From Natronorubrum halalkaliphilum (lineage in GTDB: Archaea; Halobacteriota; Halobacteria; Halobacteriales; Natrialbaceae): a stretch of 64,000 nt of DNA. A program made the translations under genes and the position numbers. Location: positions 72,656 to 136,655 of the forward strand of contig NZ_WUYX01000053.1 in NCBI RefSeq assembly GCF_009834785.1, given 5' to 3'. The notes beneath the pieces are model-generated. The model was not told the DNA's origin. It saw nothing but the letters and a program-made list of their open reading frames with translations, and did not search any database. This document shows, piece by piece, positions 15,373 through 49,196 of the stretch (the first letter of the stretch is position 1; each line of letters starts with the position of its first letter).

Positions 15373-16305
15373 ATGTGCTGTCATATGGGTGAGGAGAGTC
15401 CGAAGACGGTTGGAGTCCTGGCCGAGCCGTATCTCCACGAGTGGCAGGTCCGTGCACTAGAACGGCTCCAATCGGAAACCGACGTCGACGTTTCGCTGGT
15501 CGTGTACAACGCCAGCAACACGGAGTACGAAGCCGAATCGTGGAACACCAAGGACCGGCCCAGTCTCGACGACGTCGCGCAGTTTTTCGACGCCTTCCGG
15601 CAGGAGAAGGCGTGGTCGCTCGTCCTCGCAGAGCGGAACATCGGCCGACTGTTCGGCGACGAGCAAGAGCTCTGGTACCGACACTCCCTCGAGAACGTCG
15701 ACTGTCTCGCCGGTGCCGATTTCCGCCCGTGTGAGCCACGCGTCGAGAACGGCTGGAGCGAACTGCCGGACGATATCGTTAGCCAGCTTGCAGACCGGTG
15801 TGACGTCGTGATCCGATTCGGGTTCGGCCTGATCCGCGGTGAGGTCCTGACCGCACCGAAATACGGCGTACTGAGCTTTCATCCCGCAGACATTCGGACG
15901 TATCGGGGCATGGGGCCGCCGGTGATCTTTCGCGACGGCCGGGAGCGCGCCGGATCGACGTTACAGCGCCTGGACGAGTCGATCGATGGCGGCGAAATCG
16001 TCGCCTACGACGAGGTGCATCTCGGCAATTGCCACACGCTCTGGGACGTTTTCGACCGACTCGCAGCGTTACAAATCCGTCTCCTGGCCGAGGGAATTTC
16101 CAACCTGGGAAAGCCGGCGTTCGAACCCGAAGTCGTTCCTGATGAACAGTTAGGTGACTTTTACTACCGGAAACAGCGGCGTACACCCCCGTTTGCGGGA
16201 CGTGTCCTCCTGAAAAATCTCTCCGGACGCGTCCGACGACGACTCGAGCGAACCCGGTCGTCGGAGGGGGTGTTCGAGTCGCCATCCGATATCCCCGGTG
16301 ATTAA
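15373..16305 (+). CDS. Formyltransferase-like protein
   Basis: 310 residues from ATG 15373 (ATG 15385 is equally possible). The core resembles the formyl_transf_N fold of Fmt/PurN: FGFGLIRGEVLTAPKYGVLSFHP (about residues 150-175) followed by YRGMGPPVIFRDGRERAGSTL and the Asp-containing LDESIDGGEIV. The Asn-x-His of true formyltransferases reads SFHP, so His is kept while the usual Asn is Ser. Archaea do not formylate initiator Met, so the acceptor may be a sugar or small amine; this is inference. It stands alone after arcS. The stop codon overlaps an ITR-like sequence (TAATACGGACTGCTG). Confidence 0.65.
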   Translation: MCCHMGEESPKTVGVLAEPYLHEWQVRALERLQSETDVDVSLVVYNASNTEYEAESWNTKDRPSLDDVAQFFDAFRQEKAWSLVLAERNIGRLFGDEQELWYRHSLENVDCLAGADFRPCEPRVENGWSELPDDIVSQLADRCDVVIRFGFGLIRGEVLTAPKYGVLSFHPADIRTYRGMGPPVIFRDGRERAGSTLQRLDESIDGGEIVAYDEVHLGNCHTLWDVFDRLAALQIRLLAEGISNLGKPAFEPEVVPDEQLGDFYYRKQRRTPPFAGRVLLKNLSGRVRRRLERTRSSEGVFESPSDIPGD

Positions 16306-16478
16306 TACGGACTGCTGCCAGCCCGACAGATCGTCAGTGGCTCTCAGCGGCCTCCTCTCGTTCGTCATCGTCAGGTCATCTGAGCCGGCTTCCCGGCCGA
16401 TTCGGCCTGGGCCGCCGCCGTGCTCGTCGCTATCGGACTCATCGTGACCAGACTCTCGATGATCTTCGTCGCGGTCGC

Positions 16479-23982: not shown

Positions 23983-25172
23983 AACGCAAGCGGATCACGC
24001 TGTGTTCACCGTGGAACTGCAGGTCCTAATTCTCGCCCCGAGCGCCATCACCGATATTGCGTCGGCTCGTGTCTTCGCACTCGAGACGGTGGATATCTTC
24101 GAGCAGTCGTCCCGGCACGCAGCTGTCGATAGCAGAACACCGCGGGTCGAGTAGCGATTCGATCGATTCGGAACGACGCGAACGCGTCTGGTAAGCAGAC
24201 ATTCCGAGCACGGTTGGGAGAACGCACGGTAACTGGTTTGGATCGACGACTGTAAAACCGGTTGATGCGCCCATCGACCCCCGGACTCGAGGCAGTCAAA
24301 CGGGGATCCACGAGAGGTATCAGTAGATCGTCGTCGGTATCCCGTTTGTTTCATACGCGCGCGAACGACGACGCGACGGCGACGGTTCATACGGATTGCT
24401 GAACCGGTGTCCTGGTCCAACCACCGAGGCTGTGGATGTGTCGGTACTGACTTCCAGTAGATCGTGCCAGGCAGTACCGGAGTGCGACTGATTCAATCGA
24501 TTACGAGTCAGGATCCGGTGCGCTCCAGCGAATCGTCCGCGGTCAGCATGTGACTGGCCGTTCGGGCCCCGGGCTTGGGGTCCGATTCAGCATCCACGAC
24601 CTTCCGTTTGATCGAACCCCATCGCTGACCGAGACGGTGACTCGAGGCGACGGCGGAGAGATTGGTCGGACAAAACAATACACCGTATCCCCGTTGAGCG
24701 AACGGTCGGTCGATTGTGGATGGGGGATCAGTACGAACGTGACTTTCCATTTCGAGGGTGATTTCGCCGCAGTAGCGAACCGACCATACCAGTGAGACTG
24801 TAGCGACGGTCTGTGGTAAACCCCGAACGTCGACTGAGCGTCAGTCCCCGCCCAATCGCGTTACATGCGATCGGCCGAAACGCGTTGCGGTTGGGACTAT
24901 GCGCTCTATTTCCGTTTAGACGCGTTTTGTCGCCCGTTGAGAGGTGTTTCGAGCCTGATTCGTCGAGGGATCATCCCTCCCCGCAACAGGACATAAATCA
25001 TATGGTGCGATATTAAATGTGCCCTCAACCGTCCAGATCCGAGAGTCAAATCACCTCAGTCGCCGCTCAGCGTCATCGATCACACAACATCAAACCGAGC
25101 CGCTGTGACCGTCATACCGCAAGAAAGGTGTGCAACCGACCGAGTTCGACGGTTACTCGAGAACGAGTCAGA
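23983..25172. other. Gene-free stretch of about 1.2 kb with possible remnants
   Basis: I find no convincing gene. Base composition looks less GC-rich than the neighbours and the frames lack the acidic haloarchaeal signature. An ITR-like TCATACGGATTGCTG lies at 24387-24401 and a fragment ACTGACTTCCAGTAG at about 24449-24463 resembles the family 1 MITE end. An 82-codon minus frame (24026-24274) and an 81-codon plus frame (24550-24795) could be gene remnants but match nothing I know. Confidence 0.5.
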
Positions 25173-36561: not shown

Positions 36562-36646
36562 TGAGACGGATTGCTGTAACTATGTACCGCTGATCACCAG
36601 GGACGGGTCGGTGATCGGCGGTCATTGACTACAGTAAACCGTATGA
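36562..36646 (+). mobile_element. MITE-like element, family 2, copy A (85 bp)
   Basis: Starts TGAGACGGATTGCTGTAAC and ends ACAGTAAACCGTATGA; the termini form imperfect inverted repeats. Centre is a hairpin GATCACC...GGTGATC. Nearly identical to the reverse complement of 39445-39530. No coding capacity. Confidence 0.8.
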
Positions 36647-36742
36647 GACGGGAGACGCTCGAGAGTGGCCGTGGCGGTGGACGTGGCTTCGACAGCGTCG
36701 AAATGCCGGCGCTGTGGCCGTAGGCGACGATAGCAGTCTTCG

Positions 36743-36758
36743 GTTCGGTCTTTTTTCG
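36743..36758 (+). terminator. Possible T-rich terminator
   Basis: Run of six T residues in a pyrimidine-rich context after the transducer gene. Archaeal terminators are often simple T-runs. No hairpin is needed or seen. Confidence 0.3.
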
Positions 36759-36933
36759 GTATCGAACGCGGTATTAATACCAGTCTTAGTCGCAGACACA
36801 GCCACACTCAGTTCCGATCTCAGTGGTGAGAGCGGTAACAAGACGACCGACAGTCCGCCTCCGTGCGTGCCGAGCGCGGGCGCGGGTTCGTCGTAGCCGT
36901 AGTTTCTTGCCGGTCCCCGATCTATCACGACTC

Positions 36934-37320
36934 ATGGACGAGATTTCACTCGGCGTACCGAAACCGGTGCTCGATCGACTGCCGGCCGACGAGGAGAACG
37001 TCGCGGCGGACATGCAGGAAGCGGTTGCGGGCTGGGAGCAACGCCTGAACCGAGCGATCGAGGACGCCGAGGACGACCGCGAGGCGGCGAGTCGCGTCCT
37101 CGAGGCGATCGATCGGTTCGAACAGCGCCACGGGACCTACGACGACCTCGTTCCCGAACTGCGAGCGTGGGGGCAGTCCCCGATCTACGCGATCGCGTGG
37201 CGAACCCTCTACGCCGACGTGATCGCACAGCTGTACGCCCACGACGAACTCGGCGACCGCCTCGAACGGGAGCGAAACCAGCGACTCGTCGAGGACGGGA
37301 TTCGGCTGCAGGATATGTAG
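36934..37320 (+). CDS. Conserved-looking haloarchaeal protein of unknown function
   Basis: 128 residues from ATG 36934. Very acidic and helical, Trp-containing (VAGWEQRLNRAIEDAEDDR, LRAWGQSPIYAIAWRTLYADVIAQLYAH), no membrane segment and no known domain seen by eye. The start is chosen because upstream in-frame residues are Arg-rich and unlike a haloarchaeal protein. It lies alone between a MITE-like copy and 37415 on the same strand. I do not recognise the family. Confidence 0.7.
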   Translation: MDEISLGVPKPVLDRLPADEENVAADMQEAVAGWEQRLNRAIEDAEDDREAASRVLEAIDRFEQRHGTYDDLVPELRAWGQSPIYAIAWRTLYADVIAQLYAHDELGDRLERERNQRLVEDGIRLQDM

Positions 37321-37414
37321 CGGTCGGTGAGTTCACGCCACGCTATCCGGGCGTCCGAGATATCGCGTGCGTACAGCCCAAGCGTTCAAATCCTCGCGGT
37401 CGATAGGGGACTGT

Positions 37415-37765
37415 ATGGAGTTTGCAGTTTCACGGGACGGAACGGCGCTCGTCACCTTGCAGGGCGGCAGCGACACGACCGCCTGCGACGACGCGACGGC
37501 CGATTTCACGTCGACGCTCGAGTCCCTCGAAGCCGACGGCACGGTGGTGGACTGGACGATCGACGAGGCGGAAATCTACGAACACCCCTCGGGGCCGTTC
37601 GACCCGTACACGATCGCCGTCGAGTTCGCGGTCACCGTGATCGTCGACGCCGGAGACGCGGACGAGGCGGCCGAAGTCGGTGCCGACACGATCGACGACA
37701 CGCTCGAGCGCGCCGATATCGACGCCGTCAGCTACACGTCCGCACCGGCGGCCTCCGCGGCCTGA
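37415..37765 (+). CDS. Small acidic protein of unknown function
   Basis: 116 residues from ATG 37415. Mixed alpha/beta pattern (MEFAVSRDGTALVTLQGGSD, EHPSGPFDPYTIAVEFAVTVIVDAGDADEAAEVGADTIDDTLERADID). No known domain recognised. The region looks like a compact ferredoxin-like fold, which is a guess. Transcribed in the same direction as its neighbours with 94 nt to the preceding gene and 102 nt to the SAMP gene. Confidence 0.65.
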   Translation: MEFAVSRDGTALVTLQGGSDTTACDDATADFTSTLESLEADGTVVDWTIDEAEIYEHPSGPFDPYTIAVEFAVTVIVDAGDADEAAEVGADTIDDTLERADIDAVSYTSAPAASAA

Positions 37766-37836
37766 TCGATCGGGTCGTCGGTCGAGGACGACGAGCCGCT
37801 CGGGACGTCGACACAGGCCCGTTCGGGACAGCGAAC

Positions 37837-37845
37837 AGTATATCC
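37837..37845 (+). promoter_or_regulatory. TATA box of the SAMP/MoaD gene
   Basis: CAGTATATC with centre 27 nt upstream of ATG 37868; implies a leaderless transcript. Confidence 0.55.
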
Positions 37846-37867
37846 CACCACGCAACAAGCATCGTGT

Positions 37868-38158
37868 ATGGAGATCGACTTGCGATTTTTCGCGACCTTT
37901 CGCGACGCCGTCGGCGAGAAGGACCGAACGCACGCGTTCGACGATGACGCGACGGTCGGCAACGTTCTCGCCGCGCTCGAGGCCGAGTACGACGGGCTCG
38001 AGGGACAGTTGCTCGAGGACGGCGAGGACGGCGTCGCGATCAGGCCGCAACTGAGCGTGCTCAAGAACGGCCGCGACGTGGTCCATATGGCCGGCGTCGA
38101 AACGGAACTCGATTCGGGCGACCGGTTGTCGGTGTTCCCGCCGGTTGCAGGCGGGTAG
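37868..38158 (+). CDS. Ubiquitin-like small archaeal modifier / MoaD family protein
   Basis: 96 residues ending in the diagnostic GlyGly (VFPPVAGG). Beta-grasp fold: MEIDLRFFATFRDAVGEK, LAALEAEYDGLEGQLL, PQLSVLKNGRDVVHMAGVETELDSGDRLSVFPP. Such proteins are adenylated by UbaA and act either as protein tags (SAMP) or as sulfur carriers for molybdopterin/tungstopterin (MoaD). An aldehyde ferredoxin oxidoreductase that needs the pterin cofactor is 5 kb away (42858-44780); the closest relative (SAMP1 versus another SAMP) cannot be decided by eye. Confidence 0.88.
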   Translation: MEIDLRFFATFRDAVGEKDRTHAFDDDATVGNVLAALEAEYDGLEGQLLEDGEDGVAIRPQLSVLKNGRDVVHMAGVETELDSGDRLSVFPPVAGG

Positions 38159-38319
38159 TCGGCTCGGCCTTCGGTGAGCGCCGCGAGTGTCCGATACTGT
38201 GAGTGGTGTTCTCGTACCCGCGACGCTCGGGTGGTGTTGCGAACGGCCCGCGCGAACGCCGCCATCGATTCGAGAACGATTTACGCGGCGGTAGCCGGAG
38301 AGTGAGTGAGAGCTTCGAA

Positions 38320-39111
38320 ATGGTGGCAGATCCCGAAGCGAACGAAAAACGTGCTCGAGAGCCGAGCGAGGCGGTAAGCGAAGCAGTCGGCGAAAGAACA
38401 AGCGGAGAGCGAGACCCGAAGGCGGAGCGCATGACCTTCGAGTGGGACGGGATCCGGACCGGGTTCGTCACCTGTCTCCCGGTCGCGTTCGGCGTCGCCG
38501 GCTACGGCGTCGCGTTCGGCGTCCTCGCCAATCAGGCCGGGCTGAGCGTGGCGGAGGCGGCGCTGATGAGCGCGACCGTCCTGGCCGGGGCGTCCCAGAT
38601 CATCGCCGTTGAACTCTGGGCGGAGCCGCTTCCGGTCGCCGCGATCGTCTTCACGACGTTCGCGGTCAACCTGCGCTACTCGCTGATGGGGGCGGCGTTA
38701 CAGCCCTGGTTTCGGCGACTCTCGCCGAGTCGGATCTACGGGAGCCTCTTCTTCATGGCCGACGAGAACTGGGCGCTGACGATGCGCGACCTCAAAGCGG
38801 GGAGCGGCCGCGGCGCGTTTCTGCTCGGGAGCGGGATCGCGATGTGGGTGTTCTGGGTCGGTGCAACGGTACTCGGCGTCCTCGCCGGCGAATCGGTCGG
38901 TGATCCAACCCAGTATGGCTTCGACTTCATTCTCGCCGCGGTCTTCGTCGCACTCGCGGCGGAACTCTGGGAGGGGCATTCGACGCTGGTTCCCTGGGTC
39001 GTCGCCCTCGGCACGAGCGTCGTCGCCGCGGACCTTCTCCCGGGCCGGTGGTACATCCTGCTGGGCGGGCTGGCCGCGGCCCTCGTCGAGGTGATTCGCC
39101 ATGATCGATAA
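38320..39111 (+). CDS. azlC: AzlC family branched-chain amino acid exporter, large subunit
   Basis: 263 residues from ATG 38320 (ATG 38431 would remove a charged N-terminal tail of 37 residues and remains possible). Core family features: FGVLANQAGLSVAEAALMSATVLAGASQ and FTTFAVNLRYSLMGAAL, with about five to six further membrane segments. AzlC and AzlD form a two-subunit exporter for branched-chain and other amino acids. A TATA-like GATTTACG lies about 40 nt upstream. The end overlaps azlD by 11 nt. Confidence 0.88.
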   Translation: MVADPEANEKRAREPSEAVSEAVGERTSGERDPKAERMTFEWDGIRTGFVTCLPVAFGVAGYGVAFGVLANQAGLSVAEAALMSATVLAGASQIIAVELWAEPLPVAAIVFTTFAVNLRYSLMGAALQPWFRRLSPSRIYGSLFFMADENWALTMRDLKAGSGRGAFLLGSGIAMWVFWVGATVLGVLAGESVGDPTQYGFDFILAAVFVALAAELWEGHSTLVPWVVALGTSVVAADLLPGRWYILLGGLAAALVEVIRHDR

Positions 39112-39418
39112 CGCGCTCTCGCTCGACCCGCTCGTGGTGGGCGTCATCCTCGCGATGGCGGCCGTCACGGTCCTGACGAAAGTCGGCGGGATCTGGGTCG
39201 TGCGTCGAATCGAATTGAGCGACCGACTCGAGGCCGGTCTCAACGTTTTGCCGGGCGCGATCGTGATCGCCGTCCTCGGTCCGGAGCTCGCGGCCGGCGG
39301 CCCCGCCGAGTGGGGCGCGGCCGGGCTCGTGTTAGTCGTGATGTGGCGAACCGAGAACATCCTGCTCGCGCTGGTCGCCGGCGTCGCGGCCGTCGTGGCG
39401 TTCAGAGCACTCATCTGA
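39101..39418 (+). CDS. azlD: AzlD family branched-chain amino acid exporter, small subunit
   Basis: 105 residues, four membrane segments. Typical AzlD sequence: AAVTVLTKVGGIWVVRRIE, LEAGLNVLPGAIVIAVLGPEL and a last segment LALVAGVAAVVAFRAL. Overlaps azlC by 11 nt, giving a coupled two-subunit exporter. MITE-like copy B begins 27 nt after its stop. Confidence 0.88.
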   Translation: MIDNALSLDPLVVGVILAMAAVTVLTKVGGIWVVRRIELSDRLEAGLNVLPGAIVIAVLGPELAAGGPAEWGAAGLVLVVMWRTENILLALVAGVAAVVAFRALI

Positions 39419-39444
39419 ACGGGCGCGCTCGTCGTCACCGCCGT

Positions 39445-39530
39445 TCATACGGTTTACTGTGGTCAATGACCGCCGATCACCAGAGCCGGGGTCGGTGATC
39501 GGCGGTACATAGTTACGGCAATCCGTATCA
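39445..39530 (-). mobile_element. MITE-like element, family 2, copy B (86 bp)
   Basis: Starts TCATACGGTTTACTGTGG and ends GGCAATCCGTATCA. Its reverse complement matches copy A (36562-36646) almost base for base, including the GATCACC/GGTGATC central hairpin. A and B are therefore inverted copies 2.8 kb apart. Confidence 0.8.
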
Positions 39531-39538
39531 ATGGGCGA

Positions 39539-39546
39539 CTTTATCG
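39539..39546 (+). promoter_or_regulatory. TATA box of the gene at 39569
   Basis: CTTTATCG, centre 26 nt upstream of ATG 39569, directly after MITE copy B. Indicates a leaderless transcript for the 39569-40276 gene pair. Confidence 0.5.
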
Positions 39547-39568
39547 GCGTGGCACTCCAACTAACGCT

Positions 39569-39883
39569 ATGACAACGCGCATCGAGCGCTCCTTTCGCGG
39601 CATCTCCGAACGGCTCGTGGTTCGATACCTGACGAACCTGGGTGGCGAACGGATCGCCAAAGACACCGTCGAGGGCGAAGACTGGACGGCGACGTTTTCC
39701 TCGGAGACGGTCGCGATCGGGCCTTCGCTGACGCTGACGGAGGTGACGATCGTTTTCGAGGAAGAGGGTGAGAGTGAGGGCAAGGATGAAGGAGAGAGCG
39801 GAGAGACGAACAGCGATACGGACGACAGCCTCGAGTCCCTCGTCGATAAGTTCGCACAGAAAGCGATGCGAGCGGGCGGATAA
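39569..39883 (+). CDS. Small protein of unknown function
   Basis: 104 residues. N-terminal 65 residues alternate strand and helix (RIERSFRGISERLVVRYLTNLGGERIAKDTVEGEDWTATFSSETVAIGPSLTLTEVTIVFEE), followed by an acidic low-complexity linker and a short helix LESLVDKFAQKAMRAGG. I do not recognise the family, though the compact form is like other conserved haloarchaeal small proteins. The next gene starts at the base after its stop, so the two are cotranscribed. Confidence 0.72.
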   Translation: MTTRIERSFRGISERLVVRYLTNLGGERIAKDTVEGEDWTATFSSETVAIGPSLTLTEVTIVFEEEGESEGKDEGESGETNSDTDDSLESLVDKFAQKAMRAGG

Positions 39884-40276
39884 ATGGCGAGCGAACCGAT
39901 CGAGGGACAGGTACTCGTGCTCACGGCCGCGAAGGCGAGCGTCCCGCCGACTCGACTGCCGGACCTGGTCGAACGCGCCCAGGCAGTGCTGGAACCGGAC
40001 CTCGAGCGATACCGTCGCGAGTACGAACGGCTGTACGAAGACGACGATCTCGAGGCGTTCGCCGTCGAGTGGGGTCACTGGGAAGCCCTCGCGCTCGACG
40101 TGACAGACCGGGAGCTGTCGGCGATCCGGCGTGCACACGAGGAACAACTGCTGCGAATCGGCCGTCGGACCGATCGCGAGGCGGAGTTCGAGACGACACT
40201 CGAGATTCGGGAGCCAGTCTGTATCGGGACGAGCGACGGTGGCGACGGCGGCGGTGACGGCGACGAGAGTCAGTAG
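39884..40276 (+). CDS. Small protein of unknown function, paired with 39569
   Basis: 130 residues. Helical and acidic: LVLTAAKASVPPTRLPDLVERAQAVLEPDLERYRREYERLYEDDDLEAFAVEWGHWEALALDVTDRELSAIRRAHEEQLLRIGRR, with a Gly/Asp-rich tail. No known domain recognised. ATG follows directly on the stop of 39569-39883, implying coupled translation and perhaps a complex. Confidence 0.72.
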   Translation: MASEPIEGQVLVLTAAKASVPPTRLPDLVERAQAVLEPDLERYRREYERLYEDDDLEAFAVEWGHWEALALDVTDRELSAIRRAHEEQLLRIGRRTDREAEFETTLEIREPVCIGTSDGGDGGGDGDESQ

Positions 40277-40376
40277 GCCGAGATCGAGTCCCGATCCCGC
40301 GGCGAGCGGGAACCGGTACCGGCGGTCGATGGCAACTATAAAGAGCGTGTTCCTCCTTGCACGAATCACTGAGACG

Positions 40377-40829
40377 ATGGCTATCGACCAGGAAAGCGAA
40401 ATGACCGATACGGAGATAGATGACTTTCTCGGTCGTCACGAGACGGGGGTACTGTCGCTCGCACGCACCGACGACCCGTACGCGATCCCGATCTCGTACG
40501 GCTACGACGACGGCGAGCGGGAGTTCTATATGCGGCTGGTGTCGACGCCGGAAAGCGAAAAACGGGCGTTCCTCGAGTCCTCGCCGGCGGCACGGCTCGT
40601 CATCTACGACGAACAGGAGTCAGCCTACCGGAGCGTGATCGCCACGGGCACCCTCGAGAACATCCCTCCAGCCGAGTTGACGCCGGGCCAGATCGCCCAG
40701 TACGGCGATGCGAAGCGACCGTTGTTCGAAATCTGGGCACAAGGGAAAGCCGAACTAGATATCGAGCTCTACCGACTCGAGCCGGACTCGCTCAGCGGTC
40801 GGCGGACGGAGATCGACCGCGAGGTGTAA
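40377..40829 (+). CDS. Pyridoxamine 5'-phosphate oxidase-like flavin/split-barrel protein
   Basis: 150 residues from ATG 40377. Split beta-barrel of the PNPOx-like family: EIDDFLGRHETGVLSLARTDDPYAIPISYGYD, REFYMRLVSTPESEKRAFLESSPAARLVIYDEQ, YRSVIATGTLENI. This haloarchaeal type is usually annotated as pyridoxamine 5'-phosphate oxidase family and likely binds FMN or F420; the substrate is unknown. A TATA-like ACTATAAAG (40335-40343) precedes it. Confidence 0.82.
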   Translation: MAIDQESEMTDTEIDDFLGRHETGVLSLARTDDPYAIPISYGYDDGEREFYMRLVSTPESEKRAFLESSPAARLVIYDEQESAYRSVIATGTLENIPPAELTPGQIAQYGDAKRPLFEIWAQGKAELDIELYRLEPDSLSGRRTEIDREV

Positions 40830-40875
40830 CGCGTAACGCGAGCACGGACACGGACAGTCATCGCGTCTCGAGCAC

Positions 40876-41031
40876 TCAGTTCGTTTGTTGTTCCTGTTGC
40901 TCGGCGAAGTCCGCGGCCGTAACGTCGGCGCCACAGACCGGACAGCCGTGTGTCAACGTTGCGTCACGCATCGACTCGTTGACTTCGATTGCTTGTTCGC
41001 ATTCCGGACAGGTAAATTCGTATCTGCTCAT
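40876..41031 (-). CDS. Small zinc ribbon protein (51 aa)
   Basis: Reading from ATG 41031 to TGA 40878-40876 gives MSRYEFTCPECEQAIEVNES, then a helix-like stretch, then HGCPVCGADVTAADF and a Gln-rich tail. Two CPxC knuckles (CPEC and CPVC) form one zinc ribbon. This resembles the DUF7560 type of haloarchaeal small zinc ribbon. Role unknown. It is the nearest gene on the same strand downstream of the Cys-cluster bat regulator. Confidence 0.78.
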   Translation of the reverse strand: MSRYEFTCPECEQAIEVNESMRDATLTHGCPVCGADVTAADFAEQQEQQTN

Positions 41032-41173
41032 GAGAGGGGTGGGAGTGGATTCGTGTGAAACGTGGGTCGTCTACGTTGATAGCTGTGCGTCCACTATATA
41101 TAGGGTTGCGGTTCACCGCCGACCACCAGTAGTTCCCGAAGCTTTCTTGTGGCCTGAGTCGCGACGACCGCGT

Positions 41174-41851
41174 TCAGGAGTCATCGTACTCGAGGATCGC
41201 ATCCAACAGCTTCGTCTGTGCGGCCGCGAGATGCTCGGTGAAGGTCGTTCCGGTAATGCCGAGTTCGTCGGCAACTTCGCCGGCGTTCGCCCGCTTCGGA
41301 TGCTCGAAGTACCCCATCCGATGGGCCGTCTCGAGGACCTCCAGCTGCCGAGTGGTGAGCGTGCTCCGATCGACGAAGACGAGGTTCTGTTCGCCGTGGT
41401 CTTGCTGTGACTGGAGGAGTCGCTGGACGTCGAGATTCGAGCACCGGCCCTGCAGGTCGCCGATGATCGCCTGTAAGCTCTCCATATCCGATGCGTGGAA
41501 GGTCAGGTACAGCGCCGCCCCCTGCGTTCGGACGTCGATCACCGGCGAGTCGTGGCGTTCGATACACTCGCAGGGACAGCCGTGACCGAGCGCACGAGTG
41601 AACCGGTACACCTCGCTCGAGCCGTAGGAGAAGACCTGCGAGAGTTCGACGTCCGCGTCGAGAGTGAACTCCTCGGGATCGGGATACTCGTCGGCCTCGA
41701 GCATGAACTCCTCGGTGACGCGCTCGGGCGCGTCCGGGTTCGTGCTCCTCGAGACCGACTGGACGCGGCCGCTGACCGCCGCGGAGGCCTGCGTCACGAC
41801 GCAGCCAGCCGGGTCGTCGATCTTCACCTCCGCGCGAATCCCCGTAGCCAT
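41174..41851 (-). CDS. bat-type HTH_10 regulator with cysteine cluster (NarO/DmsR-like)
   Basis: 225 residues. The N-terminal region has Cys17 and a C-x-C-x-C cluster (Cys92, 94, 96, in GHGCPCECIERHDSP), followed by the bat-associated segment (VIDVRTQGAALYLTFHASDMESLQAIIGDL) and a C-terminal HTH_10 (LTTRQLEVLETAHRMGYFEHPKRANAGEVADELGITGTTFTEHLAAAQTKLL). NarO and DmsR of haloarchaea combine a cysteine motif with this HTH and activate anaerobic respiration genes; as far as I recall the Cys cluster is thought to sense oxygen. This protein is a candidate of that class. Divergent from the winged-helix gene at 42100. Confidence 0.8.
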   Translation of the reverse strand: MATGIRAEVKIDDPAGCVVTQASAAVSGRVQSVSRSTNPDAPERVTEEFMLEADEYPDPEEFTLDADVELSQVFSYGSSEVYRFTRALGHGCPCECIERHDSPVIDVRTQGAALYLTFHASDMESLQAIIGDLQGRCSNLDVQRLLQSQQDHGEQNLVFVDRSTLTTRQLEVLETAHRMGYFEHPKRANAGEVADELGITGTTFTEHLAAAQTKLLDAILEYDDS

Positions 41852-42042
41852 TAGCTATTGATGTGAGTTCAGGCCCCCTAAACCCTGTGTCCGCAGGGGA
41901 TCGCCGACGGATCAGTCGCCGGTCGTCCGACGGTTCGGGTCTGATCGCGTGCGGCCCACCATTTGACCCGTGTTACCGCCTCCCAAATATTGGCCGTACA
42001 CCGACTCGAGCGCCGGATTTTCCACACCCCATATAAAGCACC

Positions 42043-42053
42043 CTGTATTTATT
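42043..42053 (+). promoter_or_regulatory. TATA-like element upstream of the winged-helix gene
   Basis: TGTATTTATTG; a second AT-rich CATATAAAGC lies at 42029-42038 and may serve the opposite strand. A GGAGTGA (42089-42095) 4-5 nt upstream of ATG 42100 could be a Shine-Dalgarno sequence, so this mRNA probably has a leader. Confidence 0.4.
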
Positions 42054-42099
42054 GGGCCTCAATTGGAGGGGGCTCCCCCGTTACTATGGAGTGAAGACG

Positions 42100-42489
42100 A
42101 TGTCCGCTACGAACTCCACTACGAAGCGAGGATGGCCAGCAAACGACGACCCAGCCGACCCACAGACCGTACTCGGTGCGCTGGACGACGACGCCTGCCG
42201 GGCCATTCTCGAGGCAACGACCGAGGAATCGCTGACTGCGACGGAACTCTCCGAGCAGTGTGACATTCCGATGTCGACGGCCTACCGGAAGGTCGAGAAG
42301 CTGACGGAGGCCGACCTCGTCGAAGAGCGAGTCCGAATCAACACCTCAGGCAAGCACGCGACCGAGTACCGCAAGTGCTTCGACGACGTTCGCGTCTCGG
42401 TCTGTTGCGATAGCGGCATCGAAATCGAGATGACGAAGCCGAGCGCCGAGGCCGAATCCGGCGCCACCTACGCCGTTGCCGACGACTGA
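42100..42489 (+). CDS. Winged-helix (ArsR-like) transcriptional regulator
   Basis: 129 residues from ATG 42100. HTH at about residues 28-80 (VLGALDDDACRAILEATTEESLTATELSEQCDIPMSTAYRKVEKLTEADLVEERVRI), followed by a small C-terminal part with VSVCCDSG that might bind metal or thiol. The haloarchaeal group is commonly found divergent from bat-type regulators, as here. Targets unknown. Confidence 0.82.
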   Translation: MSATNSTTKRGWPANDDPADPQTVLGALDDDACRAILEATTEESLTATELSEQCDIPMSTAYRKVEKLTEADLVEERVRINTSGKHATEYRKCFDDVRVSVCCDSGIEIEMTKPSAEAESGATYAVADD

Positions 42490-42857
42490 TCCGCCGACAG
42501 CTCACGACGTGAGTGTCTCTCCGCGCTCCACTCGAGTGCGCTCTCGGCCCACGTCGTAGCGGACCACACGTTGCAGACGGGTCGTCTGCACCACTTCTTG
42601 TTCGACCCTTCCGGCATCGATCAGTCTCCGTCTCGAGCGGCACGGAAACGTCGCGAGGATATCGGTCGAACTGCCAACGCCCCGGAAATCGAACGCTAGC
42701 GACGGCGAATCATGTACCCGTTACTCCCCTCCCACTGGTTTGCAAATCCCATACCGTTCGCAGTTAAGGTAGCCTCCAGGTATTTGCCGACGATCGATTT
42801 CAACCGAAAATTGCGTCCGAAAGAGCAGTACGGGTACAGCGGCCCGAGAACCGACGA
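42490..42857. other. Gene-free stretch before the AOR gene
   Basis: Convergent gap between 42489 and the AOR stop at 42858. I read all frames and see nothing supported; one stop-free frame reads through 42495-42695 but lacks a start and family resemblance. Confidence 0.5.
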
Positions 42858-44780
42858 TCAGTCGTCGGCCGGAGCCGCGGAGTCTCCGGCGGAGACGCCC
42901 GTTCCCGGTCCGAGATCGATCTCGAGTTCCTCGAGTTTCTCGTCGGGGACGACGCCGTCGACCCAGCCGCGGTGATCGTAGTACTCCGCCTTCATCTCCT
43001 CGAGTTCGCAGTACTCGCCCTCGCTGGCACCCTGACCGCGGATGCCGTCTTCGAGGAACCGTTCCGGCAGGGAGTCGTCGCTTCCGTCGAAGCCGGCGAG
43101 GTTGTTGTAGTAGCGCTCTAAGTTGTAGATCCGTTCGCCGGCCTCGAGCAGTTCCTCTTCGCTGACGTCCAGTCCGGTCATGCCGTTGTACTGGAGTACG
43201 TACTCCTCGATGCCCTCCGCGAACGCGTTGAACTTGCAAATGTCGAAGCTGTCCGAGATGGCGTGAAGATCCTGGAACTGGGCGGTGAGTTCGCCCTTCC
43301 CCTCGTACTCGTAGGGGTCGACCTTCTCGGGAACGCCCAGAATCTCGGCGGCGGGGGTGTACCCCCGAAGGTGACAGGCTCCGCGGTTCGAGGTGGCGTA
43401 ACCGATGCCCATCCCCTTCATACAACGCGGATCGTAGGCGGCGATTGTCTGGCCCTTGACCGCAAGCGAGTTGTCGTGGGCGTCTTTGGCCTCCGCGACG
43501 CGGCGGGGCCCTTCGGCCAGCAGATCCGCGAGATCGTCCTCGCGGCGGGCGACCCGTTCGATCATGTCGATCATGGTCTCGTGGTCGCCCCAGTCTAACT
43601 CGCCGACGCCCTCGAGTTTGCCCTCCTCGGTCATCTCCATGGCCATCGCCATCATGTTGCCCGCGTCGATGGTGTCGAGACCCATGTCGTTACAGCGGTC
43701 GAGCATGAGCGCGATGGCGTCGCGGTCGGTGTGACCGGAGTTCGGGCCGAGCGCGTAGGCGGATTCGTACTCGTAGGACTCGGTGCGGACGTTCATTTCC
43801 TCGCCCTTGTGCATCGCCTGGACTTCGACTTCCTTCTTGCAGGCGACCGGACAGGAGTGACAGGTCGGCTCGTCGACCAGGATGTTCTCGCGGACGTTCT
43901 CCCCGGAGACGCGCTCGGCGTCGATGTCGACGCCCTCCGCGTCGCGCATGGCTTCGGTTGAGGTGTACTGCCCGTTCTTCGTCGGCAACCCGTCCATCTC
44001 CTCGCCGATGTTCATCAGGACGTTCGTCCCGTACATCGAGAGGCCGCCCTCGTTGGGTGCGGTGACGTCGGACTCCGTGATGGCCTGCATCGCCTGCTGA
44101 TGGCCCTCTTTGAACGTCTCCTGATCCGCGGGCTGGGGCATCTTCGTCGTCGATTTGACGACGACCGCCTTGAGGTTCTTCGACCCCATGACACAACCCG
44201 TCCCGCCGCGGCCGGAGGCCCGGTCGTCCTCGTTCATGATACAGGCGTACTTCACGCCGTTCTCGCCGCCCGGACCGATCCCCATCACGCTGAGGTTCTT
44301 CCCGTAGGAGCCGTCTACTTCCTCCTCGAGCGCGTCGCGGGTGTCGTGAAACCCTTCACCCCAGAGATGAGAGGCGTCCCGCAGTTCGACCTCGCCATCC
44401 TCGACGACGGCGTAGACGGGATCGTCGGCTTCCCCTTCGAACAACAGGCCGTCGAAGCCGGCCCACTTGAGTCGTGCGCCGGACCAGCCGCCGTGGTGGC
44501 TGTCGGTGACTGTTCCGGTCAGCGGCGACTTCGTACAGACGGCGATCCGGCCGCTCATCGTCACCTGCGTGCCGGACAGCGGCCCGTTCATAAACGCGAG
44601 CAGATTGTCCGGCCCGAGCGGATCGACGTCCGCTCCCTGTTCGAAGACGTACTTTACCCCGAGCCCGCGCGCGCCGATATACTTCCTCGCGTCCTCCTCG
44701 TCGATCGACTCGTACGCGACTGACCCCTCCGAGAGATCGATACGGGCGACGTTGTCCTGAAATCCGCCAAGTTCAGTCAT
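42858..44780 (-). CDS. Aldehyde ferredoxin oxidoreductase (tungstopterin family)
   Basis: 640 residues. Oxidises an aldehyde to the acid with ferredoxin as acceptor, using a tungsto-bispterin and one [4Fe-4S] cluster. Visible are the N-terminal RIDLSEGSVAYESIDEEDARKYIGARGLGVKYV, GPLSGTQVTMSGRIAVCTKSPLTGTVTDSHHGGW, GRGGTGCVMGSKNLKAVVV and the cluster ligands Cys307, Cys310, Cys314 (TCHSCPVAC) with the distal Cys515 (FDICKFNAF). A good Shine-Dalgarno AGGAG (44786-44790) precedes ATG 44780, so its mRNA has a leader. An upstream inverted repeat may be an operator. Confidence 0.92.
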   Translation of the reverse strand: MTELGGFQDNVARIDLSEGSVAYESIDEEDARKYIGARGLGVKYVFEQGADVDPLGPDNLLAFMNGPLSGTQVTMSGRIAVCTKSPLTGTVTDSHHGGWSGARLKWAGFDGLLFEGEADDPVYAVVEDGEVELRDASHLWGEGFHDTRDALEEEVDGSYGKNLSVMGIGPGGENGVKYACIMNEDDRASGRGGTGCVMGSKNLKAVVVKSTTKMPQPADQETFKEGHQQAMQAITESDVTAPNEGGLSMYGTNVLMNIGEEMDGLPTKNGQYTSTEAMRDAEGVDIDAERVSGENVRENILVDEPTCHSCPVACKKEVEVQAMHKGEEMNVRTESYEYESAYALGPNSGHTDRDAIALMLDRCNDMGLDTIDAGNMMAMAMEMTEEGKLEGVGELDWGDHETMIDMIERVARREDDLADLLAEGPRRVAEAKDAHDNSLAVKGQTIAAYDPRCMKGMGIGYATSNRGACHLRGYTPAAEILGVPEKVDPYEYEGKGELTAQFQDLHAISDSFDICKFNAFAEGIEEYVLQYNGMTGLDVSEEELLEAGERIYNLERYYNNLAGFDGSDDSLPERFLEDGIRGQGASEGEYCELEEMKAEYYDHRGWVDGVVPDEKLEELEIDLGPGTGVSAGDSAAPADD

Positions 44781-45103
44781 GATAACTCCTCGCTGTTCAC
44801 TTCGTCGCCTATCCTGTTAGTCGTTCTCACTCCCCCGTAACCGAGTGTGGTTACGTGCGCGTGCTCGAACGATCAGGAGTAGTCCCCACCGAGTACTGGC
44901 AAGGGTTCGAATCGGTGACGAACCGCCGGTAGCAAATACTGCCGAATCGTAACTAATGGGAGTCCCCAGACGGCGCTATTCGAGCGATATTTGGTGCTCT
45001 CGGGCAGCTGCTGTCGCACTCGAGAATGTCGTCGCTGGGTCGACCCGCTACTGGGCCGACAACGATACCGAGCGGACCGCCCGCCGTGGGGGACGGGCCG
45101 TGC
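44781..45103. other. Gene-free stretch with two inverted repeats upstream of AOR
   Basis: Carries the AOR leader and promoter. Two inverted repeats stand out: GTAACC-GAGTGT-GGTTAC (44837-44854) and GGTTCG-AATCGGTGA-CGAACC (44905-44925). No gene or tRNA: the second repeat looks superficially like a T-arm but lacks the rest. Confidence 0.55.
44837..44854. promoter_or_regulatory. Inverted repeat, possible operator of the AOR gene
   Basis: Perfect 6-bp arms GTAACC/GGTTAC around six bases, 57-74 nt upstream of ATG 44780. The position fits an operator around the core promoter. The regulator is unknown. Confidence 0.4.
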
Positions 45104-45298
45104 TTATAACAGCAGTGCGACGACGGCAAGGATGATGAAGATCAGCACGAAGATCCGCGCGATCTCCATCGAGATGCCGGCGACGCCGCGGGCTCCGACC
45201 GCTGCAGCGACGATCGCGAGCACGAAGAAGATGATCGCCCAGTACAGGAAGCCGCCGCCGCCCATCTGAAGTGGTACCGACGTTGCGATGTCGAGCAT
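45104..45298 (-). CDS. DUF1328 (YtjA-like) small membrane protein
   Basis: 64 residues from ATG 45298, fixed by a TATA box 27 nt upstream. Two membrane segments: FLYWAIIFFVLAIVAAAVGARGVAG and ISMEIARIFVLIFIILAVVALLL, which is the DUF1328 pattern. Function unknown; family members are stress-related inner membrane proteins in bacteria. Confidence 0.85.
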   Translation of the reverse strand: MLDIATSVPLQMGGGGFLYWAIIFFVLAIVAAAVGARGVAGISMEIARIFVLIFIILAVVALLL

Positions 45299-45321
45299 AA
45301 CTCGAGCTATCACGAGGTGGT

Positions 45322-45329
45322 AGATAAAT
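45322..45329 (-). promoter_or_regulatory. TATA box of the DUF1328 gene
   Basis: Minus strand ATTTATCT, centre 27 nt upstream of ATG 45298, leaderless arrangement. Confidence 0.55.
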
Positions 45330-45394
45330 CTCGGCGACCGTCCAGACGCTAACTCCGGGCTACAGCCGATTAAGATGCCGTTCCGCCGGCGATA

Positions 45395-47392
45395 TCAAGC
45401 CGAAGATTGCTTATCCGTGAAGAAGGCTCCACAGAGCTTCGCTTCGGCCGAGCGCAAGTGTTCGTGGAAGGTCGGCCGGGAGACGCCCATCGACTGAGCC
45501 AGTTCCTCCCCAGTCGTCGGTCGGGGCCACTCGAAGTAGCCGCTCAGATAGGCCCGCTGTAACGCGGCGAACTGGCGATCGGTAAGCTCGGCTTCGAGCC
45601 TGGCGGCGAACTCCTGGTGAGTCTCTTCCTCGCGGTCGCGTTGTTCGAACGAAATGACGTCGGTGCCCGCATATCGGTCTTCGACGGCCTCCACGACCGA
45701 CCGAACGTTGGCCGACCGCGGAATCTCGAGCGTGAGACGTGCCCGGCCGTCTTCGCTCTCGATCGATTGGGTCCGGACGCCGCGGTCGGAGAGCCAACCG
45801 ACGAGGTCGTCACCGCCGGACAGTTCGATCAGGCACTCGCCGTCGCGTTCGACGATGACCCGGCAGTCGAGGTCGGGAATCTCGGCGACGGCCGCGGTGA
45901 GGTCGTCGGCGGTGGCGTCGGGCCCGGTGACGGTAAACAGCGATGCCGTCTCGTCGCCGGTTCGGTGGACCGATCGACGGTACTCGAGGCGACAGTCCGC
46001 AATCTCGGAGAGGGCGACGGGGCCGACGGCCGTATCGGTGAGCGCAAGTTCGACGGCAACGACCGCGTTCGTCGCGAGCACGCGACTCGTCTCCCGGGCG
46101 TTGACGCCGCTCGCGACCGCGCGCGCGAGCGCTGAGAGGATCACGGTCTCGCGTTCGTCGATTGGCGGGTTGCGGTCCGTACAGACTGTAAGGACCCCGT
46201 ACTCGATCCCGTTGTACGACAGCGGGAACGAGGCGTGGGTCGTCCCCTCGAGCGAGTCGGTGGCGATGGCGTTCTCGGCGAGGGTTTCGGCGGCCGGATG
46301 GTCGCCGGTCGTCGACACTCCAGCGTTACCGGCACACGCGCCGGTACTCGCCCGAACGTCGATCGTTCCCGTTGCGGGGTTTCGCTCGCCGATCCAGGCA
46401 CCCTCGTAGGCCGACTCGGCGGCAATCCGATCGCACACCGCCTCCTCGAGTTCGTCTCGCGTCGTCGAGCCCGCGACCACGTCGGTCACGTCCTGGATCA
46501 ATCCCTCGATCCGTTCGAGGATGTACTCGAGTTCCTCAGTTCGGCGCTCGAGTTCGAACTCGGCCTCCTTGCGCGCCGTCACATCGTTCTGGAAGCCGAC
46601 GTAGTGGGTGACCTCGCCCGCATCATCGCGAACGGGGGCGATCGTGACCTCGTTCCAAAACTCGGTGCCGTCCTTTCGGTAGTTCTTGAGTTCGACGGTC
46701 ACCGGACGGTCCTCGTCGATCGCCGCCGCCATTTCGGCGATTGCGTCTTCGTCGGAGTCGTCGCCCTGTAGGAACCGACAGTTTCGCCCAATGACGTCGT
46801 CGTAGCTGTAGCCGGTCATTTCCTGATAGGCGTCGTTGATGTAGACCAGTGGATTGTCCTCGAGATCCGGGTCGGAGATCGTGATCCCGACCGGGGCTTC
46901 GTTGATCGCTCGCTCTTTGACCACGCGATCGGTTTCGCTGACCGTGGTTCCGTCAGTGACACCGGTGTTCGAGACTGTGTTATCGGTACGGTCCACGTCA
47001 CCGACGCGTTCGAACACGATCGTTGCGCCCTCGGCCGAGCGATGGACGCGGGCGTTGAATCGCTTCCCGTCACCGCTCTCGGCGTCGTCAGCGAGCGCGA
47101 CGTGGCGAACGGTCCCGACCGCCGTCTCGTCGATCGCTGTCTCGAGTCGCGTCCAGTGTTCGAGTGCAGTCGACGCGTCCCAGTTGCCAGCACCGCTACC
47201 GGTACCGGCATCAGCACCGACTTCCTCCCGTGCCTCCTCGACCGGAAGTTCGAAGAGATCCCGTGCCACACCGTTAGCGTACGTAATCGTCCCGTCAGCG
47301 ACGGCGACGACGGGGTCGACTACGGCCTCGAGTGCGGTGGCTGCCGGGGTTGCACGTCCCCCATCATCAGACGCCGCATTGGCGTTCTCCAT
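45395..47392 (-). CDS. PAS/LOV-GAF-bat (HTH_10) regulator, Bat-like
   Basis: 665 residues. Order: PAS-like (about 15-130), PAS with the LOV flavin-binding motif GRNCRFLQ (202-209; the photoactive Cys would be 205) at about 155-280, GAF (about 300-445, CDRIAAESAYEGAWIGERNPATG), bat-associated domain (about 450-600) and HTH_10 (LTDRQFAALQRAYLSGYFEWPRPTTGEELAQSMGVSRPTFHEHL). The PAS/LOV-GAF-HTH_10 order is that of Bat, the bacterio-opsin activator of Halobacterium, which responds to light and oxygen. No opsin gene is in the window, so the target may differ. Soluble; a typical haloarchaeal photosensory candidate. Confidence 0.9.
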   Translation of the reverse strand: MENANAASDDGGRATPAATALEAVVDPVVAVADGTITYANGVARDLFELPVEEAREEVGADAGTGSGAGNWDASTALEHWTRLETAIDETAVGTVRHVALADDAESGDGKRFNARVHRSAEGATIVFERVGDVDRTDNTVSNTGVTDGTTVSETDRVVKERAINEAPVGITISDPDLEDNPLVYINDAYQEMTGYSYDDVIGRNCRFLQGDDSDEDAIAEMAAAIDEDRPVTVELKNYRKDGTEFWNEVTIAPVRDDAGEVTHYVGFQNDVTARKEAEFELERRTEELEYILERIEGLIQDVTDVVAGSTTRDELEEAVCDRIAAESAYEGAWIGERNPATGTIDVRASTGACAGNAGVSTTGDHPAAETLAENAIATDSLEGTTHASFPLSYNGIEYGVLTVCTDRNPPIDERETVILSALARAVASGVNARETSRVLATNAVVAVELALTDTAVGPVALSEIADCRLEYRRSVHRTGDETASLFTVTGPDATADDLTAAVAEIPDLDCRVIVERDGECLIELSGGDDLVGWLSDRGVRTQSIESEDGRARLTLEIPRSANVRSVVEAVEDRYAGTDVISFEQRDREEETHQEFAARLEAELTDRQFAALQRAYLSGYFEWPRPTTGEELAQSMGVSRPTFHEHLRSAEAKLCGAFFTDKQSSA

Positions 47393-47502
47393 ACCCGTTC
47401 TAGGGAAGGCGATACCCTAAGAACCCTGGTTATCGGACGGACGAATCAGTTATCGGACGGATCACCACGCATGTTATAAATCTCCGTGACCTATGATAGC
47501 AC

Positions 47503-47694
47503 ATGTCTAGCTTTCGATCACCGTTCGAGCGACTTCGAGCGAAGTTCGACGAGTCGGAGCTGAAATGCCCGGCGTGTGGCTACATGGATACTGACGGCGG
47601 CTGGCGCGTCAGTACCTCCGGCAGTCGCGTCCAATACCAGTTCATCTGTCCGACCTGCCACGCCATCGAGACGCGTGAAATGCGCCTCGAGTAG
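47503..47694 (+). CDS. Small zinc ribbon protein (63 aa, HVO_0649-like)
   Basis: Sequence has two CPxC knuckles: LKCPACGYMDTDGGWRV and FICPTCHAIETREMRLE, forming a zinc ribbon, with the N-terminus FRSPFERLRAKFDESE. This resembles the HVO_0649 family of haloarchaeal zinc finger proteins. Role unknown. It is divergent from the Bat-like gene with 110 nt between them. Confidence 0.8.
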   Translation: MSSFRSPFERLRAKFDESELKCPACGYMDTDGGWRVSTSGSRVQYQFICPTCHAIETREMRLE

Positions 47695-47804
47695 GGACCG
47701 ATGCAGTCGGTCGTCGGAGGCGTTCGCTCGAGGGCGAGTCGTCCTTCGACGGCACTATCGCCGGTGAGCGAACGCGATTTTGTCGTCAGTTCCCAGACGA
47801 AGGC

Positions 47805-47812
47805 GCTTTAGG
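47805..47812 (+). promoter_or_regulatory. TATA box of the RaSEA gene
   Basis: GCTTTAGG, centre 28 nt upstream of ATG 47836. Selects ATG 47836 over the in-frame TTG at 47824. Confidence 0.5.
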
Positions 47813-47835
47813 CGCTGGGCCGCTTGCCTCACACA

Positions 47836-48936
47836 ATGAGTAAACCCACGCCCGACGTCTACGAGCAGGGCAAGGGCATGGACGCCCACAACCAGGCGAT
47901 GCGGGAGATCCGCTCGCGCAAGGAGGCGAGCTACGACCCCCACGAGCCGACTCGCGTCTGGCTCGACGAGGACAACACCCCCGGCGGCGTCAAGCAGAGC
48001 CTGACGATCATCTTAAACACCGGCGGCTGCCGCTGGGCCCGCGCCGGCGGCTGTACGATGTGTGGCTACGTCGCCGAAAGCGTCGACGGCGGCAGCGTGA
48101 GCCACGAGGCGCTGATGGACCAGATCGACATCTGTCTGGAACACGAGCAGGAACACGGCGACGAACCCGCCGATCTCATCAAGATCTACACCTCCGGCTC
48201 CTTCCTCGACGAGCGGGAGGTCGGCGCCGAGAGCCGCCGCGCCATCGCCGAAACCTTCGGCGACCGCGAACGGATCGTCCTCGAGTCCCTGCCCGACTTC
48301 GTCAGCCGCGAGAAAATCGGCGACTTCACCCAGTACGGGATCGATACGGACATCGCCATCGGCCTCGAGACGGCGACCGACCGCGTGCGTCACGACTGTG
48401 TGAACAAGTACTTCGACTTCGCCGACTTCGAGGACGCCTGCGAGGAGGCCGCAGTCGCCGATGCGGAGGCGGGCGACGATGTCGAGGCGGGGATCAAAGC
48501 CTACCTCCTGATGAAACCGCCGTTCCTCACGGAGTCCGAAGCCGTCGCGGACATGATCTCGTCGATCGAACGCTGCGCCGACGTGGAGGGCTGTCACACC
48601 GTCTCGATGAACCCCTGTAACGTCCAGCGCTACACGATGGTCGACGAACTCTACTTCAACGACGGCTACCGGCCCCCGTGGCTCTGGTCGGTCGCACACG
48701 TCCTCGAGGAAACCGCGGACGTCGACGCCATCGTCGTTTCCGACCCGGTCGGACACGGTTCCGACCGCGGCCCGCACAACTGCACGGAGTGTGACGACCT
48801 CGTCCAGAAGGCGATCAAGGATTTCGACCTTCGACAGGATCCCTCCGTCTTCGAACAGGTTTCCTGTGAGTGTGAGCTTACCTGGGAGACGGTTATGGAG
48901 CGCGAGCGGAGTTTTAACCAACCGCTGACTCGATGA
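47836..48936 (+). CDS. Archaeosine biosynthesis radical SAM protein RaSEA
   Basis: 366 residues. Radical SAM domain with the unusual cluster motif C-x7-C-x2-C in GGCRWARAGGCTMCGY (about residues 57-72), then IKIYTSGSFLDEREV, LESLPDFV, IAIGLETATD and KAYLLMKPPFLTE, and a Cys-rich C-terminus (NCTECDD, CECELTW). RaSEA acts with ArcS to turn the lysine-preQ0 adduct on tRNA into archaeosine (as reported for archaea); TgtA and ArcS are in the same window. Symbol left empty because usage varies. Monocistronic, leaderless by TATA spacing. Confidence 0.9.
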   Translation: MSKPTPDVYEQGKGMDAHNQAMREIRSRKEASYDPHEPTRVWLDEDNTPGGVKQSLTIILNTGGCRWARAGGCTMCGYVAESVDGGSVSHEALMDQIDICLEHEQEHGDEPADLIKIYTSGSFLDEREVGAESRRAIAETFGDRERIVLESLPDFVSREKIGDFTQYGIDTDIAIGLETATDRVRHDCVNKYFDFADFEDACEEAAVADAEAGDDVEAGIKAYLLMKPPFLTESEAVADMISSIERCADVEGCHTVSMNPCNVQRYTMVDELYFNDGYRPPWLWSVAHVLEETADVDAIVVSDPVGHGSDRGPHNCTECDDLVQKAIKDFDLRQDPSVFEQVSCECELTWETVMERERSFNQPLTR

Positions 48937-49110
48937 CTCGCTACTCCGCTGACTCGCCCCCTCGCCACATCGGCACCTCGCCGACTCACCGGCCCGTGAT
49001 GGCCCCTGGCGAGTGCGCGAAAGCCGGCCGCTCACCGTTCATTCTCCCATAAGATAGATTACCGCCCCCGGCTAGGAACGACGTATGTCCGGACCGGGGT
49101 ATACGATGGC

Positions 49111-49196
49111 TGATACGGTTTGCTGTAACGATTTACCGGTGCAACCGCAAGACGGTTCGCGGTCGCACCGCCAATGACGGACAGTGGACCGTATGA
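49111..49196 (+). mobile_element. MITE-like element, family 2, copy C (86 bp)
   Basis: Starts TGATACGGTTTGCTGTAAC and ends ACAGTGGACCGTATGA, the same termini as copies A and B. The core hairpin differs (GGTGCAACCGC...GCGGTCGCACC). Its right end lies 11 nt before the cheC ATG, so it may supply part of that promoter or leader. Confidence 0.75.

Follow-up and report, generated by a model that had tools for sequence, protein, structure and literature searches.

We have identified a family of short palindromic repeats in the haloarchaeon Natronorubrum halalkaliphilum, three copies of which (A, B and C) lie in a stretch of 64,000 nucleotides of contig NZ_WUYX01000053.1 (positions 72,656 to 136,655 of the forward strand; this whole stretch is the window, and position 1 is its first letter). 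The three copies belong to a family of miniature inverted-repeat transposable elements (MITEs), being short, non-coding and multi-copy, with terminal inverted repeats and a target duplication of fixed length. The element is probably a MITE of the DDE type, with a palindrome that is flipped by way of hairpin or cruciform intermediates, a reading to which we assign a probability of about 0.78.

Structure of the element and its copies in the window

The element is a nested palindrome of ∼80 bp, in which the nearly constant ends, of 14 bp each, form an outer stem around an inner 12-bp stem and a loop of ∼12 bases. From one end the layout is TACGG(A/T)TTGCTGTA, spacer, inner arm, loop, inner arm, spacer and TACAGTAAACCGTA, or a close variant, and the element termini read as TACGGWTTRCTGTA. 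In most copies 12 of the 14 positions of the terminal inverted repeats pair; the outer-stem mismatches at positions 6/75 and 9/72 are conserved and asymmetric, and distinguish the left (L) from the right end. Of 108 own-genome copies, 104 measure 78–81 bp, a length that leaves no room for a transposase. The window carries the following copies.

36562..36564: left target duplication of copy A, TGA; starts 7 bp past the stop of an MCP/HAMP transducer gene (36554)
36565..36643, + strand: copy A, 79 bp, core type 1; first base G in place of T
36587-36598 and 36610-36621: inner arms of copy A, with the loop 36599-36609, AGGGACGGGTC
36644..36646: right target duplication of copy A, TGA
39445..39447: target duplication of copy B, TCA
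39448..39527, − strand: copy B, 80 bp, core type 1; L end to the right
39470-39481 and 39494-39505: inner arms of copy B, with the loop 39482-39493
39528..39530: target duplication of copy B, TCA
49111..49113: target duplication of copy C, TGA
49114..49193, + strand: copy C, 80 bp, second core type; diverged, with 4 end mismatches
49136-49147 and 49160-49171: inner arms of copy C, with the loop 49148-49159
49194..49196: target duplication of copy C, TGA
24390..24466, + strand: decayed fourth copy, with 5 end mismatches; flanks TCA and CCA

The coordinates that the first-pass annotation had given to the three copies (36562-36646, 39445-39530 and 49111-49196) are correct and include the 3-bp target duplications. 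It had also noted the GATCACC/GGTGATC arms common to A and B and a different hairpin in C; both observations hold, the hairpin of C being the second core type. The shared termini, described there as extending over ∼25 bp on both sides, are real, while their nearly constant part is shorter, ∼14 bp per side.

The duplication at copy B starts 26 bp past the end of an AzlD gene, and 38 bp separate its own end from the next predicted gene (39569); copy C ends 14 bp ahead of the predicted start of a CheC/CheX gene (49208). A 16-base end motif, with up to three mismatches allowed, occurs 13 times in the window, where chance would give 2.57; not all of the 13 occurrences mark the end of a copy. One solitary end-like motif with two mismatches, at 16305-16320, may be the remnant of a further copy.

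Abundance and host range

A two-ended pattern matched 73 places in the 4.56-Mb genome, and its reversed control none. The oriented strict pattern gave 68 copies in the genome, and a mismatch-tolerant finder gave 108 distinct copies in the own-genome loci that were read, which make up part of the genome.

The oriented pattern is present in 38 of 125 Natrialbaceae genomes (11 of 29 genera). In an order-level sample of 392 genomes it occurs in 32, namely in 31 of 96 genomes inside the family and in one of 296 outside, the sole outside host having a single copy of 69 bp. Named hosts among the matches listed are Natrarchaeobius, Natrialba, Natronolimnohabitans, Salinadaptatus, Natronococcus, Halobiforma and Natronorubrum, and plasmids of N. 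bangense carry the element as well. A search of phages and viral contigs for the element gave no match.

Target duplication and evidence of movement

A perfect TNA duplication flanks 60 of the 68 strict copies (one has an N in its flank). Over all loci the count is 186 of 234, made up of 94 of 108 copies from the own genome, 5 of 6 from the same genus and 87 of 120 from named records (a few of the latter are also from Natronorubrum). The 186 duplicated triplets are 98 TGA, 85 TCA, two TTA and one TAA. The insertion site is itself palindromic, about G-W-C-T-S-A-G-W-C, i.e. C-TSA-G around T-S-A. By the subgroup rule for such elements, duplication of TNA points to the IS5 family (IS1031/IS427-type), to which the element may belong. 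A DDE transposase supplied in trans would recognise the 14-bp ends.

Copy B is absent from the orthologous intergenic stretch in all eight alignable genomes of the same genus; in a ninth (G002) the flanking genes were matched on separate contigs. Among the relatives this stretch is too diverged to pinpoint the empty base. Recognition of the ends by a transposase, one of two explanations suggested in the first-pass annotation, is thus supported by the near-constant ends, by the TNA duplications and by the missing copy B.

At one locus with the element on a stop codon (L058), the corresponding genes of relatives lack the element and have a TGA stop at about the same position, as judged by eye (the stretch of G007 is shifted). 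In another relative (G006, locus L073) the stretch right behind the stop of the upstream AzlD-type gene resembles by eye a heavily decayed copy at another position, which the relaxed finder rejected. At two pairs of loci (L017/L197 and L151/L236) elements with different sequences stand at the stop of the same gene in different genera, either from an old shared insertion or from a target used repeatedly.

Pairing of the inner arms and inversion of the loop

Variation of the core was analysed in 68 distinct 80-mers, 65 of them from named records (every distinct one obtained) and three from the own genome. The inner arms come in many types (GATCACC, GATCGCC, GCGCAACCGC, GCGCACCCGC, GAGCGACCG and others), whereas the outer ends hardly vary. 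Pairing in the inner stem is kept nonetheless: 96.4% of cells are paired, against 26–40% when the arms are slid. Changes on both sides were found in 13 of 24 pairs, against 6.0 in shuffles, a count that takes related copies separately, so that the events are not independent. The covariation check on the cores that the first-pass annotation had proposed thus yielded strong compensatory changes in the arms together with consistent termini. Such covariation cannot prove RNA function, because the DNA-level process behind the loop inversion could also copy changes between arms.

The loop lies between the arms in either orientation. Copies A and B, besides other differences, have opposite loops relative to their ends (AGGGACGGGTC in A and GACCCCGGCTCT in B, both read from L to R). 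In the own genome, copies with core type 1 have 59 forward and 27 reverse loops and copies with core type 2 have 10 forward and seven reverse (5 of the 108 copies were not classed). In a Natrialbaceae metagenome-assembled genome with 19 copies counted, 4 of the 10 listed copies have one orientation and 6 the other. In six pairs of element types the only difference is that the loop is exactly inverted; the pairs represent six backgrounds and four genomes (two pairs in the own genome, one in Natrarchaeobius, one in Salinadaptatus and two in the metagenome-assembled genome). Of the 299 own-genome pairs that are at most two substitutions apart, 115 have opposite loops, from which it follows that loops invert about as fast as an element gains one or two substitutions.

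These inversions are probably caused by template switching, or by processing of a cruciform, within the inner palindrome. The inner palindrome would fold into a hairpin or cruciform, and the replicating strand would switch template inside it and thereby flip the loop; alternatively, a transposition intermediate would pass through a hairpin or cruciform form. Either process would also tend to keep the arms complementary.

Two individual loci of the own genome are of an unusual form. At L027 (C38:101309 and 102005) a pair of copies separated by 0.6 kb have exactly opposite loops and share a base unique among the strict copies; they are perhaps a local transposition pair. A 60-bp version at L029 (C38:145242-145301), flanked by TGA and TCA, has an inner part that seems to run backwards between the outer ends, as would result from inversion of a larger nested arm.

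Insertion at stop codons

Copies with a perfect duplication that lie at least 200 bases from the end of their locus were scored against gene models (window copies A and C are outside this set). Of 175 scored copies, 88 have a duplicated triplet that serves as the native stop codon of a gene (46 of 91 in the own genome, 4 of 5 in the same genus and 38 of 79 in named records); the expectation from the target matrix is 14.5% for the own genome and 18.6% for the named records. The stop involved is nearly always TGA, and the protein of the gene is unchanged. When the genes were called again with the element removed, all 88 copies remained on stops and 2 of the 175 would interrupt a predicted gene; gene models made on sequence with the element are a weak test for intragenic copies, since the insertion splits the model. 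Pfam domains are present in all 10 on-stop genes tested, and on an N. bangense plasmid a gene annotated at NCBI ends in the duplicated TGA (one of two annotated hits).

The concentration on stop codons would come mostly from the match of the target motif to C-TGA (often GAC-TGA, Asp-stop), together with the tolerance of gene ends for insertions, with a small further preference that is at most modest. In line with the motif, 88 of 103 on-stop elements have a C immediately ahead of the stop, compared with 297 of 589 other genes ending in TGA, and the last codon is GAC in 39 of 103 compared with 70 of 589.

Search for an autonomous partner

Around ends outside the 68 strict copies of the own genome, found with single-end patterns, 40 regions were analysed, in which no autonomous element was identified (five more L-type ends were left out). 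Nor was any found at 42 transposase loci, some of them overlapping, in a search for the ends and for inverted repeats, detected de novo, that are flanked by duplicated TNA. A profile search with PF01609 in eight genomes gave 79 matches, 30 of which were examined as loci; the PF13586 profile gave nothing above the cut-off in eight genomes.

Long-range pairing of ends yielded longer relatives of 108–181 bp and one pair 2.3 kb apart. The latter, in Salinadaptatus (L171:1429-3739), has end-like motifs with 3 + 1 mismatches (four in total), a TCA duplication and, between them, two predicted genes on the minus strand without a match to a Pfam family. The same end pairs better in a 108-bp version, and the 2.3-kb pair was set aside. 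A seeming element of 1.1 kb at C57 turned out to be two 80-bp copies.

Salinadaptatus also has versions of 137 bp (L168:6115-6251, L193:5428-5564 and L217:4319-4455) with the same ends and one side extended by an internal stretch that contains GTGAGTCGAAC or its complement. One own-genome copy (L110, C60:127953-128139) contains a nested element of ∼97 bp with the ends AGGGATCAGC and GCTGATCCCT. This second repeat, considered as a control family for the stop-codon analysis, was rejected, having only two exact-ended copies in the genome.

Weighing of the explanations

Several observations weigh against a DDE-type MITE with a flipping palindrome and against the stop-codon pattern attached to it. 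No autonomous element with these ends was identified, in searches that covered only part of the clade's transposases; the 2.3-kb Salinadaptatus stretch could be a longer relative, or could be due to chance, and may represent a partner of uncharacterised type. A perfect duplication is missing at 33 of 120 named-record copies and at 14 of 108 own copies. Between secure orthologues no loop inversion in place was seen, and the candidate pair L151/L236 may represent two separate insertions. The stop-codon counts depend on home-made gene models built from codon usage; an initial gene test of another kind placed 22 of 75 copies on stops, and A, B and C all lie off stop codons.

Orientation of the loop might instead go back to a small number of ancient variant lineages, or to copies exchanging sequence, with no repeated inversion. 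The hybrid arms (CACC with GGCG) of several copies suggest that copies may exchange sequence; yet exact inversion pairs on six backgrounds and the high share of opposite loops among near-identical copies make this explanation quite unlikely. Another reading, that folded single-strand or cruciform copying rejoins the inner hairpin either way, so that each round of transposition can flip the loop, and that the transposase prefers stop codons, with TGA as a safe harbour regenerated by the duplication, appears to us rather improbable. Active targeting of stop codons or gene 3′ ends by the transposase, beyond a CTNAG preference combined with loss of harmful insertions, is by itself unlikely. In its favour, the excess on stops survives adjustment for both half-sites, with an odds ratio of 4.10 (2.73–6.15), and one of 2.05 (1.26–3.36) against sites within 60 bp of a stop (these ratios leave out six copies in loci added later). 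The excess is also seen in convergent regions, which have no promoters: at convergent gene pairs 43 elements occupy stops and 21 lie elsewhere, where the available TSA sites number 191 and 1043, respectively. An age trend is absent, with 14 of 30 young and 32 of 61 old copies on stops, which speaks, with little power, against slow loss as the only cause. However, the residual against neighbouring downstream sites is about twofold, and for tandem pairs alone it is not significant, at 1.83 (0.94–3.55); in the strictest motif class of the convergent regions (6/4 against 9/12) the excess is not significant either, and the frequency of C before the stop indicates that sequence explains much of the pattern.

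The first-pass annotation had also offered a functional RNA/protein-binding hairpin, for which we find no support. As an RNA element, a hairpin in the 3′ UTR under selection, comparable to the Escherichia coli repetitive extragenic palindromes (REPs) near stops, would act through its stem on translation or mRNA decay. The predicted RNA folds of A, B and C are strong (−39.2 to −41.8 kcal/mol, z from −4.5 to −5.9), the arms covary, and half of the scored copies directly follow a stop codon, a setting in which REPs within 15 nt of the stop reportedly stall ribosomes (PMC12306157). On the mRNA strand of 69 on-stop copies the mismatches lean to G-T over A-C (37 against 25, with no significance test applied to the lean). 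Over all 80-mers, in contrast, mismatches are spread evenly across the DNA strands, with 55 G-T and 61 A-C; an RNA-strand signature is weak at best. Neither the element (43:41 relative to the upstream gene) nor its loop (39:45 on the mRNA strand) has a preferred orientation, and an Rfam scan of the window at the gathering score gave no matches. The share on stops is alike in young and old copies, and 23 of 171 copies lie between divergent genes. The RNA function proposed in the annotation is thus unsupported, and we consider it very unlikely. The DDE-type MITE with loop inversion at the DNA level remains the reading that we prefer.

Relation to known elements and significance

The element resembles the TNA-duplicating prokaryotic MITEs of the IS5 family in being short and non-coding, with terminal inverted repeats, a 3-bp TNA duplication and a high copy number. 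It differs from them in that it is palindromic almost throughout, its loop inverts, half of the scored intact copies are on stops and a search through part of the clade's transposases yielded no autonomous partner. Small loop inversions, with a loop between inverted arms in both orientations, are known from chloroplast hairpins; those concern single loci, whereas here a multi-copy mobile element is inverted in several genomes. REPs are transposed by a Y1 transposase. The present elements are, like REPs and bacterial interspersed mosaic elements, extragenic palindromes, some of them close after stops, but are longer than these (PMC12306157) and have TNA duplications and constant ends. The SMRs (80–110 bp) and PATEs of Haloquadratum walsbyi are likewise many-copy, transposase-free haloarchaeal repeats, and the size of the present element is near that of the SMRs. 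According to the description of these repeats (PMC3119063), they cause no target duplication and PATEs are without terminal inverted repeats; the TNA duplication found here places the element outside SMR/PATE as so described. No earlier description of the element was found among the papers listed in the literature searches, which did not include ISfinder, preprints and most subscription journals.

The family is useful for annotating Natrialbaceae genomes. Inversions of a hairpin loop in archaea are naturally recorded in it and can be counted, with near-identical copies serving as internal controls. It also calls for caution, as covariation in repeated palindromes can arise from copying at the DNA level and does not necessarily point to RNA function. 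Through a short target motif, a mobile element can come to lie on stop codons with the proteins left unharmed, and in these genomes strong hairpins have been placed directly behind dozens of genes.

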